Source: SAR92 clade bacterium H921 (GTDB lineage Bacteria; Pseudomonadota; Gammaproteobacteria; Pseudomonadales; Porticoccaceae). From it: a stretch of 64,000 nucleotides of DNA. Where the stretch lies: assembly GCA_025153755.1 (NCBI GenBank), contig JAOALD010000001.1:682001-746000 (forward strand), given 5' to 3'. The notes under the pieces were generated by a model, which was not told where the DNA came from, did no database searches, and saw only the letters and a program-made list of their open reading frames with translations. This document shows, one piece after another, positions 25,402-57,360 of this stretch (positions within the stretch are counted from its first letter, which is position 1; each line of letters opens with the position of its first letter). A program made the position numbers and the translations under genes.

Positions 25402-27294
25402 ATGAAGTTTGGTCCACTCAAGGTTTTGCAGCCGTTGGCGCTGGTTATGCTGTCAGTCTCCTGCTTTGCAGAGATTGATGATGATCGGCAGACTCAGGTA
25501 TATTTTGGTGATACGCACCTGCATACCTCCTACTCTTTCGATGCTTTCTTAAATAATAACTTCAGTGCCGATCCAGACACTGCCTATCGCTGGGCCAAGG
25601 GTGAGCCAGTTATTCACCCCTACAATCGCGCCCGTGTCCAAATTAATACACCGCTGGATTTTTTGGTAGTCTCAGATCATGCTGAAATGCTCGGTGTGAT
25701 GCGTGAGATTCGCAATGACACTATTCAGTGGGAAGATATTGGTTGGTATGCCTCAATTAAACGTTGGTTGGCAGTTAGGGCCCTAAACAATGCGTTGGAC
25801 GATGATCTGGGTCGCGCTTTCTTTGCGCGATTCTTACCTCAGTCTGCTGCCGAAAAGGGCGGGGATCCAGTTGCAGATGTTCATAATAATATTAATGGTG
25901 TTGCCATTTTTGGTGACACCAGTGGCACGTCTAAAGATGCCTGGCAGGATATTATTGCAGCGGCAGAAAAGCATAATGACCCAGGAAAATTTACCAGTAT
26001 TTTGGGCTGGGAATGGAGCTCAATTCCCACTGGCGCCAACTTGCATCGTGTCGTCTTAACCCCTGATGGTGCTGATAAAGCGAGTCAGTACATTCCCTAC
26101 GGGTCAGATCAGAGTCAGTATCCAGAAGATCTTTGGCAGTGGCTAGATGATACCGCAGCGTTATCAGGTAGCCGTTTTATCGCTATCCCGCACAACTCTA
26201 ATATTTCTAAAGGCTATATGTTTGGTGCTACCACAGTGAAAGGTCAGCCTATTACTGCAGACTATGCACGCACGCGCATGCAGTGGGAGCCAATTACTGA
26301 GGTTACGCAAATCAAAGGTGACAGTGAAACCCACCCACAGTTTTCGCCAGACGATGAGTTTGCCGATTTTGAAACTTACGAGCACTACATCCAAACGACA
26401 ACGAGTAAAACTCCGGTTTCTCGGGGAGACTATGTTCGACCGGCGCTAAAAGAGGGCCTTGCTCTAGGGCAAAAAATCGGTGTGAACCCCTATAAGTTTG
26501 GCTTTATAGGCTCAACCGATGCTCACTCGGGTTTGTCGTCACCGGAAGAGGGCAATTTCTGGGGCAAGATGGCCAAAGACTCCACGCCTGAAACCAAAGC
26601 GCCTGTGCTGGGTAATCCAACCGGTGCTGATGGCTGGGACATGTCAGCCTCTGGATTGGCGGCGGTCTGGGCCAAGGAGAATACACGCGACGCCATTTAC
26701 GCTGCATTCAAGCGCAAAGAGACATACGCTACCAGCGGCCCAAGGTTGCGTGTACAGTTGTTTGGCGGCTGGAATTTCCCGCAAAGCGCTGCGCAAGCTG
26801 AAAACTTTTCGGCTGTAGGCTATGAATATGGTGTGCCGATGGGTGGAGACTTGCAGGCCAATGAGTTGAATACAGCGCCTAGCTTTTTAATGCGTGCGGT
26901 AAAGGATCCCCTCGACGCCAACCTAGATCGACTGCAAATGGTGAAGGGCTGGGTTGATGCTAATGGTGAGCAGCATGAGCGTGTTTACAATGTTGCCTGG
27001 TCCGATGGACGCGAGTTGGATGCCCAGGGTAAACTTCCCCCCGTAGGGAACACTGTAGATCTCACCTCAGCACGCTACACTAATACTATCGGCCAGGCCG
27101 AATTTACTGTGCAATGGTCTGACCCCGACTTTAACCCAAAGCAAGCGGCCTTTTACTATGTGCGGGTATTACAGATACCTACACCACGCAATGGCTTATT
27201 TGATGCCTTGGCGCTGCAGCTAGATGAGCCACCTAAGGGGGCAGCGACAATTCAAGAACGTGCCTATACCTCGCCTATCTGGTATCAGCCCTAA
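25402..27294 (+). CDS. Exported DUF3604 protein, PHP-like metal-binding motifs
   Basis: A 630-residue protein with a signal peptide (cleavage near residue 23, after SCFA). It belongs to the DUF3604 family, which has no established biochemical function that I know of. Motifs that look like a PHP-type metal phosphoesterase site are spread along it: GDTHLHTSYSFDA (H39, H41), VVSDHAEMLG (D92, H93), LGWEWSS near 203, AIPHNSN near 262 and GSTDAHSG near 373. The last third (about 450-630) appears beta-rich. An ATG with AAAGGAG upstream fixes the start. It is followed on the same strand by a PpiC-type isomerase and a HupE-type membrane protein, suggesting a shared periplasmic job. Confidence 0.85.
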   Translation: MKFGPLKVLQPLALVMLSVSCFAEIDDDRQTQVYFGDTHLHTSYSFDAFLNNNFSADPDTAYRWAKGEPVIHPYNRARVQINTPLDFLVVSDHAEMLGVMREIRNDTIQWEDIGWYASIKRWLAVRALNNALDDDLGRAFFARFLPQSAAEKGGDPVADVHNNINGVAIFGDTSGTSKDAWQDIIAAAEKHNDPGKFTSILGWEWSSIPTGANLHRVVLTPDGADKASQYIPYGSDQSQYPEDLWQWLDDTAALSGSRFIAIPHNSNISKGYMFGATTVKGQPITADYARTRMQWEPITEVTQIKGDSETHPQFSPDDEFADFETYEHYIQTTTSKTPVSRGDYVRPALKEGLALGQKIGVNPYKFGFIGSTDAHSGLSSPEEGNFWGKMAKDSTPETKAPVLGNPTGADGWDMSASGLAAVWAKENTRDAIYAAFKRKETYATSGPRLRVQLFGGWNFPQSAAQAENFSAVGYEYGVPMGGDLQANELNTAPSFLMRAVKDPLDANLDRLQMVKGWVDANGEQHERVYNVAWSDGRELDAQGKLPPVGNTVDLTSARYTNTIGQAEFTVQWSDPDFNPKQAAFYYVRVLQIPTPRNGLFDALALQLDEPPKGAATIQERAYTSPIWYQP

Positions 27295-27397
27295 TTAGGG
27301 CAAAATATGGATTACTTACCAACCCTGAGCCATGCCTGTAGGATCTGGTATTATTTTGATCTGAAGCTCTGGGATTGTGTTAACTAAAGAAGGATCT

Positions 27398-28273
27398 ATG
27401 CGTAAATTATTAAAAGAACCTCTAGTGCAGTTTTTATTAATTGCTTTGCTGTTGTTAGGTGGTGAGCGGCTGATTAATGCCGATGACTACGCCAATGAGC
27501 AATACAGGATTTTGGTTGATGACCAGGTGCTTCTACAATTTATGCAGTTGCAGGCAAAGATGTTCAAACCTAGCCAAGCCAAGGCCGTACTCGAGGCGAT
27601 GAGCCCTGAGGATCGCCAGCGTCTGGTTGGAGACTATTCGCGCAATGAGGTGCTGTTTCGCGAAGCCATGGCATTGAATCTAGATAAAAATGATCAAATT
27701 ATTCGCCGTCGTCTGATCCAAAAAATGGATTATCTGGCTCAGGGTTTTTATGACCAAGCCAAGCCAATGAGCGAAGATGATTTGCGTGGCTACTACACAG
27801 AGCATCAAGAAGATTATCAAAAGGCGGCGTCGGCAACGTTTACCCATGTATTTATTTCCACCGATACCCGTGGGACGATCGAAGCCAAAACTATCGCAGA
27901 AACTTTGCTTAAAACATTGATGGCTGATCAGATCCCATTTGAAAATGCGCCCCGTTATGGAGAGCGTTTTCTCTATAATCGCAACTATGTTAATCGTGAT
28001 GATAATGAAATTAGTAGCCATTTTGGCAATGACTTTAGAGACAGCGTATTTGCCTTAGAGGTCACCGGCGACTGGCAGGGACCAGTACAGTCTAGTTACG
28101 GCTGGCATCTGGTTTTACTCAAAAAAAATACGCCGGCCTATATTCCCGAGTTTGATGAAATTAGGTCTGCTGTCTTTGCCGATGTTGAGCGTTATCAACA
28201 GCAGCAGACAAAGCGCGAGGCGATTAACAAACTGATGGCCAAATATAAGATCAGCGATCAGGGCCAGCAATAA
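27398..28273 (+). CDS. Membrane-anchored parvulin-type peptidyl-prolyl isomerase
   Basis: A 291-residue protein with a single N-terminal helix (PLVQFLLIALLLLGGERLI) anchoring it in the inner membrane, an alpha-helical SurA/PpiD-like segment and a PpiC domain at about residues 130-245 (ATFTHVFIST, then DSVFALEVTGDWQGPVQSSYG followed by WHLVLLKK). It probably helps fold or stabilise an exported protein. ATG 27398 is chosen: it has AGGA seven bases upstream, and the frame start 21 bases earlier does not. It ends two bases before the HupE-type gene, so the two are clearly in one transcript; the DUF3604 gene lies about 100 bp upstream. Confidence 0.85.
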   Translation: MRKLLKEPLVQFLLIALLLLGGERLINADDYANEQYRILVDDQVLLQFMQLQAKMFKPSQAKAVLEAMSPEDRQRLVGDYSRNEVLFREAMALNLDKNDQIIRRRLIQKMDYLAQGFYDQAKPMSEDDLRGYYTEHQEDYQKAASATFTHVFISTDTRGTIEAKTIAETLLKTLMADQIPFENAPRYGERFLYNRNYVNRDDNEISSHFGNDFRDSVFALEVTGDWQGPVQSSYGWHLVLLKKNTPAYIPEFDEIRSAVFADVERYQQQQTKREAINKLMAKYKISDQGQQ

Positions 28274-28275
28274 TA

Positions 28276-29277
28276 ATGCGGCTGATTTTTATATGGCTTA
28301 CGCTGCTGGCAATATATTGCCCACCTTTAATGGCCGATGAGGCGCGTCCAGTTTATGTTGAGATAATTGAGCAACAGGACTCGCAGTATTTGTTAAAGTG
28401 GAAGATTCCGCCCGTTATGCCCGACCGCCAAGAGCCGGCTATCGAGCTTCGTCATAGTAACTGTGGTTCGGCCGAGAATCATGTTAGCGGGCGTCCCGCT
28501 GGTTTGGTAGGTAGAAGGCTCTACGTCTGTGACCAGCCTAGTCCAGCATTTTCTATCCAGCTTAGTTATCCGCTTAGTAATCCGGCACTGACGTCATTGG
28601 TTGTTTTCAAACCCTTGGTTGGTGATCCTGTACAGGTGTTTTCTGGTCCTGAAAAAAACATCATTGAAATGCCCCTGGGGTCGTCGGCGAATGATGTGGC
28701 CAAGCAATATACAGTGGCGGGCATAGAGCATATCTTGATCGGTACAGATCATCTCCTATTTGTGGTGTGCCTAATGATGATTGCCGGTAGCTTTAAGCGA
28801 TTGATTCTCACAGTAACCGGTTTTACCCTTGCTCACTCAATTACCCTGAGTTTGGCAACCCTTGATATCTTCCGCCTGCCCACAGAGTTGGTTGAACTCT
28901 TAATAGCACTGAGTATCTTGTTACTGGCGGCAGAAATTATGAAACACAGACGTGATGGTGGGCCAGAAAGTTTCACTTGGCGCTACCCAGTGACTGTATC
29001 GTCGGTGTTTGGTCTACTACATGGCTTTGGTTTTGCGGTGGTATTGCAGGAGCTGGGCTTGCCCGCCTCAATGAAAGTACAGGCGTTACTGTTTTTTAAT
29101 ATTGGTGTTGAACTGGGGCAGTTGGTCTTTATTGTTGCTGTATTGGCTTTAGTAGCCAGTGCAACTAGACTCTCAATTTTTACCAGGCACAGAGATCAAT
29201 TTGGTGACGCTGGAGTCTATGCCATTGGCATATGCAGTGCTTATTGGTTATTTGAGCGCAGTGTATTTTTTATCTAG
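28276..29277 (+). CDS. HupE/UreJ-type membrane protein with exported N-terminal domain
   Basis: A 333-residue protein. A signal peptide (LIFIWLTLLAIYCPPLMA) is followed by a ~130-residue periplasmic domain and then six to seven membrane helices from about residue 155. The membrane part begins GIEHILIGTDHLLFVVCL, the HupE/UreJ signature with paired histidines and aspartate that is thought to bind Ni2+ or Co2+, and also has TLAHSITLSLATL and GLLHGFGFAVVL. Members with this two-part layout (HupE/UreJ_2) are not proven metal permeases. No hydrogenase, urease or cobalamin gene is near, so its metal would serve something else, possibly the adjacent DUF3604 protein. Confidence 0.82.
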   Translation: MRLIFIWLTLLAIYCPPLMADEARPVYVEIIEQQDSQYLLKWKIPPVMPDRQEPAIELRHSNCGSAENHVSGRPAGLVGRRLYVCDQPSPAFSIQLSYPLSNPALTSLVVFKPLVGDPVQVFSGPEKNIIEMPLGSSANDVAKQYTVAGIEHILIGTDHLLFVVCLMMIAGSFKRLILTVTGFTLAHSITLSLATLDIFRLPTELVELLIALSILLLAAEIMKHRRDGGPESFTWRYPVTVSSVFGLLHGFGFAVVLQELGLPASMKVQALLFFNIGVELGQLVFIVAVLALVASATRLSIFTRHRDQFGDAGVYAIGICSAYWLFERSVFFI

Positions 29278-56846: not shown

Positions 56847-56965
56847 GGCTTAAGCGTCGCCTGAGCTCATTTGTTGCAATCATTGATCTAATTTTCGGGT
56901 TTTTTTGTAAAAATCTCATGGCATCTAACACCCTGTTCGTCTCAATCCATGCTATTCTCCCGCTT

Positions 56966-57343
<378 letters not shown>

Positions 57344-57360
57344 AGCTTTTTGCAGTGCTT

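Follow-up and report, generated by a model that had tools for sequence, protein, structure and literature searches.

What common task, if any, unites the three collinear genes that lie on the plus strand of a 64,000-nucleotide stretch of the SAR92 clade bacterium H921 genome (contig JAOALD010000001.1, positions 682,001 to 746,000; hereafter the window)? In the order given by the open reading frame (ORF) list and a profile scan, they encode a DUF3604 protein (25402..27294), a PpiC/parvulin-type protein (27398..28273) and a HupE/UreJ-2 membrane protein (28276..29277). A sequence-only reading of the window had named these families and the profile matches agree with it, with PF12228 scoring 785.6 bits (gathering score 20.4) over profile positions 3-591 of 591, PF13145 (Rotamase_2) 55.1 bits (gathering score 27) and PF13795 (HupE_UreJ_2) 149.7 bits (gathering score 24.5). 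We find that the association of the three genes holds across Pseudomonadota, beyond chance, and our analysis suggests that the set is a dedicated folding and metal-supply system for an exported enzyme.

The expectation that PpiC and HupE would co-occur with DUF3604 far above background was borne out very strongly in a sample of 378 genomes of the phylum. PpiC (E<=1e-40) is present in 24 genomes and DUF3604 (E<=1e-20) in 24, with 23 shared (Fisher p 1.5e-34); these counts include G000, add two own-genome DUF3604 places and merge the two pieces found in G340. G380 is counted among the 23, yet its DUF3604 is only a remnant. HupE (E<=1e-20) is more widespread, with 78 genomes carrying it. Each of the 29 PpiC genes has a HupE gene within 1.04 kb, and 28 of the 39 DUF3604 genes lie within 5 kb of PpiC. 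The genes need not be neighbours, as the nearest DUF3604 to the PpiC-HupE pair is 41 kb away in G479 and on another contig in G517. The distribution is patchy, and eight families as labelled by the tool (f141, f202, f212, f205, f170, f196, f201 and f235) contain both carriers and non-carriers.

In a sample of 229 genomes of the class, DUF3604 was found in 23 genomes, HupE over the cut-off in 63 and both in 17 (Fisher p 1.3e-6), after exclusion of seven HupE rows below the curated cut-off, merging of gene pieces and addition of own-genome DUF3604 places. A partner lies within 10 kb of 15 of the 100 HupE genes and 20 of the 51 DUF3604 genes. PpiC is present at 14 of the 15 DUF3604-HupE places, the exception being L019, and the subfamily PpiC was absent from all 20 of the HupE-only loci examined (of 85 such genes). 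With the PpiC profile, the 16 rows at E<1e-52 all adjoin at least one of DUF3604 and HupE, and a gap separates them from the following row at 2e-31, a result that is partly circular because the PpiC model (A2) includes G000, other class-sample genomes and members from L058-L130. Where DUF3604 was detected at E<1e-40, PpiC was found in 12 of 16 genomes. The exception, L019:8037-9023 on the minus strand (G012), is a single ORF that matches DUF3604 at its start and HupE at its end and is either broken or chimeric.

DUF3604 is a multi-copy family, and the pair is often encoded at another place in the genome. Among the matches listed, the 80 loci whose DUF3604 is closest to the window protein, many of which end at contig ends, include PpiC in 27 cases, HupE in 25 and both in 25; where at least 3 kb is available on either side (47 loci), 19 have both, one has PpiC only and 27 have neither. 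Judged by the loci alone, the link would seem weak, but the pair may lie past the contig end in some of the pair-less loci, and a search of the genomes changes the picture. Fifty of the 53 loci that lack the pair trace to 47 genomes, of which 40 have PpiC at E<=2.8e-38 and 42 at 1e-20 (including 8/8 of those with NZ_ accessions), and in 38 of the 47 PpiC has a HupE_UreJ_2 match (Pfam) within 1.5 kb. This analysis used 59 of 68 PpiC rows, the other nine being second pieces or weak extra matches, and second pieces of HupE were dropped. The 47 genomes hold 326 DUF3604 matches (a median of five per genome, pieces included) against 49 pairs. Given that the pair is mostly found elsewhere in the genomes of pair-less loci, it behaves as an accessory that the paralogues of one enzyme family share. 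The pair loci of G613 (L169) and G628 (L168) carry no DUF3604 in the retrieved stretch. An unusual expansion is seen in G595, G597, G610 and G640, with 20 or 21 DUF3604 matches among the best 21 of 31 to 39 candidates, and L099:11790-12413 holds broken DUF3604 pieces between two intact DUF3604 genes. The samples overlap in that G626, the genome of L058, is among the 47, and there may be further overlaps; the L058 contig is titled as a Flavobacteriaceae metagenome-assembled genome (MAG), some of its genes (TrmJ-like, IscU-like) cluster only with those of the window, and the title probably does not fit the contig.

In the source genome itself (2.57 Mb, 13 contigs), each of the three HupE_UreJ_2 genes adjoins a Rotamase_2 gene as well as a DUF3604 gene, and four of the seven DUF3604 genes belong to such units. 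Its other two units read TonB-receptor-PpiC-HupE-DUF3604-DUF3604 (L013) and TonB-receptor-PpiC-HupE-DUF3604 (L017), the latter with an extra 158-residue SurA_N-like piece between PpiC and HupE (L017:10163-10639, minus strand). In the window the PpiC and HupE genes are two bases apart, as had been described, and of 41 pairs, counted from the first possible start codon, 16 have frames with an overlap of precisely 4 bases and 35 fall in the range from -50 to +26 bases; such close spacing fits translational coupling. Quick trees of 46 complete units were correlated (r 0.866 for DUF3604-PpiC, 0.823 for DUF3604-HupE and 0.863 for PpiC-HupE), with 0/999 permutations as high, and L017, L021 and L024 form a second lineage on long branches that is a single clade in all three trees. 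In public annotation, genes for DUF3604, peptidylprolyl isomerase and HupE/UreJ are consecutive in Rhodobacter sp. CZR27 and in Ruegeria sp. AD91A; a single hypothetical gene interrupts the series in Neorhizobium petrolearium. Amongst 72,556 plasmid records, the DUF3604 and PpiC queries each match 78, mainly from Rhizobium and Sinorhizobium, the overlap between the two sets of records being uncounted; a Salipiger plasmid carries DUF3604 with no pair within 6 kb.

The AlphaFold2 model of the window DUF3604 protein is confident (predicted local distance difference test, pLDDT, 92.4) and its fold comparison matches PHP proteins, indicating a predicted PHP-like domain (residues ~30-447, 25489..26742) followed by a C-terminal beta sandwich (residues ~448-630, 26743..27291). 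The motifs singled out in the sequence-only reading (H39, H41, D92-H93 and D373-H375) are present and invariant in 67/67 aligned sequences, as are the residues at all nine positions of the PHP metal-ligand pattern, the candidate ligands H39, H41, D47, H93, E204, H215, H264, D373 and H375. The first and last of the candidate metal motifs, H39-x-H41 and D373-x-H375, lie at 25516..25524 and 26518..26526. The earlier suggestion that DUF3604 is PHP-like is thus supported by the confident predicted model and the invariant candidate ligands, and the protein, probably metal-using, may act as a hydrolase. It is alike in predicted fold and candidate ligand positions to members of the PHP superfamily such as TM0559, BVU_3505, RNase AM and the PHP domain of PolIII alpha, but differs in being exported, in its extra beta sandwich and in having its own parvulin and HupE alongside.

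PpiC belongs to the parvulin family by its rotamase domain (27770..28165, residues 132-263 of the GTG-started ORF) and is predicted to have isomerase activity and an N-terminal hydrophobic anchor. Its match to the model for NifM, a PpiC relative among the dedicated accessory proteins of metalloenzymes, is poor, with E 2.4e-4 and a score of 21 bits where the cut-off stands at 168.2. The HupE model (pLDDT 87) comprises a beta domain (residues 21-135, 28336..28680) that is predicted to follow the signal peptide and to lie in the periplasm, with a predicted mature N-terminus at Asp21, and the permease core (28708..29163, PF13795 over residues 145-296), in which H152, D158, H159, H187, H249 and E279 are invariant in an alignment (A3) of 27 chosen HupE sequences from which degenerate ones were excluded. 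Signal sequences were judged by eye and the HupE cleavage site was taken from the alignment. Of the pair HupE proteins, 49/52 group apart from 21 others, with support of 94/73, just under the tool's mark. In fold the modelled N-domain resembles ZrgA and PA4063 and may resemble Ang-1. HupE/UreJ-2 permeases can bear Ang-1 or Ang-2 domains and are then termed anglerases in the passages of PMC12537917 considered here; compared with these, the window N-domain is shorter (~115 residues, where the 9gce chain has 168), no sequence match to 9gce was obtained, and the mature N-terminal residue, His in 38/52 pair HupE proteins, is Asp in 14/52, the window included.

How might these proteins work together? 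The DUF3604 proteins would leave the cytoplasm by means of a signal peptide and, once in the periplasm, fold into PHP-type hydrolases that need a multi-metal site. The membrane-anchored parvulin may aid this folding, whilst the periplasmic domain of HupE may capture a transition metal (Zn and Co being the likeliest), which HupE would handle at the inner membrane so that the DUF3604 site is filled. One PpiC-HupE pair could serve several DUF3604 paralogues encoded elsewhere. PHP enzymes use Mn, Fe, Zn and Co, and HupE proteins have been linked to Ni and Co; our tentative suggestion of Zn or Co comes from the overlap of these metals with those of ZrgA and PA4063 (Zn, Co). The proposal is built upon the co-occurrence, adjacency and co-diversification of the genes, the predicted folds and the invariant candidate ligands, and from these we infer the folding role, the delivery of metal and its direction, the identity of the metal and the enzyme activity. 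We would give an even chance to the statement that exported DUF3604 hydrolases are folded by PpiC and receive their metal with the help of HupE, in trans if required.

Several observations weigh against this. Four of the 16 class genomes mentioned above have DUF3604 without PpiC (G011, G093, G178 and G186, which are 97, 90, 72 and 81% complete, respectively), as do five of the 47 genomes behind pair-less loci at 1e-20, all of them MAGs, and 10 of the 59 PpiC rows in that set have no HupE_UreJ_2 match within 1.5 kb. G564 has the pair but no DUF3604 at E<=1e-20, G340 carries a divergent DUF3604 and no pair, and DUF3604-PpiC neighbours occur with no adjacent HupE at L035, L079, L158, L159 and L164. 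Correlated trees would also be expected from transfer of the whole operon. The window HupE does not have the N-terminal His of anglerases, the window has no Rfam riboswitch match and a search for Zur-like boxes gave none above chance. The HupE of Rhizobium leguminosarum is described as a nickel transporter needed for hydrogenase (a reference within PMC12537917, as cited in the passages considered), and import to the cytoplasm alone would not metallate a periplasmic enzyme. Finally, L110 has PpiC together with N- and C-terminal domains but no HupE permease domain, a gene of the chromate-transporter family lies beside it on the opposite strand, and a search of this stretch with the ABC and ZnuA genes described below found no relative.

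Set against L110 are three loci from Bacteroidota, L088 (Christiangramia gaetbulicola), L130 (Carboxylicivirga marina) and L160 (a Robertkochia sp. genome), in which the third gene keeps its N-domain and gains a C-terminal domain, and the pair is followed by genes for an ABC (ATP-binding cassette) ATPase, a MacB-type permease and ZnuA (132.5, 128.3 and 148.8 bits). In L130 the HupE part still exceeds the cut-off (43.8 bits), with its motif, as read, partly lost; that of L088 falls short of the cut-off, and in L160 the third gene has no Pfam match at all. HupE is intact in L113, a MAG titled Flavobacteriaceae. From these variants and L110, metal handling by the unit is likely, but the HupE core is not indispensable. 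The metal link put forward in the sequence-only reading is supported by the fold of the HupE N-domain and by the ZnuA and ABC genes of the three loci, whilst delivery of the metal by HupE to DUF3604 is something that we still infer. A further form of the proposal, in which a parvulin and a HupE with a ZrgA-like domain that catches metal make up a dedicated machinery in the periplasm and metallate a large set of exported PHP-type hydrolases in trans, with the core decayed and an ABC-ZnuA system alongside in some Bacteroidota, seems to us plausible at rather less than even chances. The common C-terminal domain of L088, L110, L130 and L160 is ~150 residues long, has no Pfam name and extends or replaces the HupE part.

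The same loci could be read differently. The whole unit might serve metal acquisition, with DUF3604 cleaving an external metal-binding compound, HupE or ABC-ZnuA importing the metal and PpiC folding the exported parts. The ABC-ZnuA genes behind the pair would suit this, as would the TonB-dependent receptors near L013, L017, L085 and L131 and the TonB-ExbBD genes adjoining the Ruegeria unit. However, a genome may have at least 21 DUF3604 matches, and neighbour clusters within 6 kb of DUF3604 include sulfatases in 14/125 loci (PF00884 in two members scanned) and DUF1254/1214 proteins in 9/125 (Pfam in two members scanned), with which catabolism fits better, and one TonB-receptor cluster (assigned by our own hidden Markov model and by reading) is found in 12/125. 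We consider this explanation unlikely.

We think it similarly improbable that the true partnership of DUF3604 is with PpiC and that the third protein is a scaffold or another transporter, for example of the reaction product, with no metal delivery. The missing permease domain of L110, the unmatched third gene of L160 and the DUF3604-PpiC neighbours without an adjacent HupE favour this, but every phylum-sample PpiC gene adjoins HupE, the metal-motif residues are invariant in the A3 sequences (degenerate ones excluded) and the N-domain resembles metal-binding proteins. A third possibility, inheritance of the genes together as one cluster with no functional link, could account for the correlated trees, since operon transfer alone can produce these, but co-occurrence persists where the genes are not adjacent and distributions within families are patchy, making this very improbable indeed.

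Known systems offer partial parallels to the proposed folding and metal-supply system. Urease and hydrogenase are metalloenzymes with dedicated accessory gene sets and, as with these, the accessory genes here track an enzyme family; the partner in this case is an exported PHP-like protein. No hydrogenase or urease was seen among the ORFs read at 20-36 kb of the window, no family search of the window or genome for these having been made. Some HupE/UreJ-2 proteins may have a role besides supplying nickel to urease or hydrogenase. The Zrg and PA4063-4066 systems are built around a MacB-type permease with an ATPase, according to the relevant passages of PMC9820375 and PMC11481552, where the Zrg system is tied to Zn (or Co-pyochelin) transport and not to an enzyme; these passages on Zrg and PA4063-PA4066 give no HupE fusion, PpiC or DUF3604, and the word HupE is absent from the text of PMC9820375 consulted. 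Likewise, the main text of PMC12537917 as consulted contains none of the words PpiC, peptidyl and DUF3604. No ZrgA with MacB-type permease and ATPase was apparent among the window ORFs at 20-36 kb, judged by eye with six genes profile-scanned. In the literature searched, outside which most subscription papers lie, DUF3604 appears only as an entry in the mutant table of one paper and its accession names are absent, as are the PF13795 names and any joint use of 'HupE UreJ' and 'peptidylprolyl isomerase'.

The predicted catalytic fold, together with the two partners that recur beside it, makes the function of DUF3604, an often multi-copy exported family, testable. If our proposal is true, this unit would be a tractable model for how exported metalloenzymes are loaded with the correct metal in the periplasm.

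Within the window, PpiC more probably starts from an in-frame ATG (27398), which follows AAGGA, than from the GTG at 27377 with which the ORF opens, and this leaves 103 bases between DUF3604 and PpiC. The unit is preceded by a divergent amino-acid permease gene and followed by an inositol-monophosphatase gene on the other strand. Further along, at 56965-57348, the window also contains a class A RNase P RNA.

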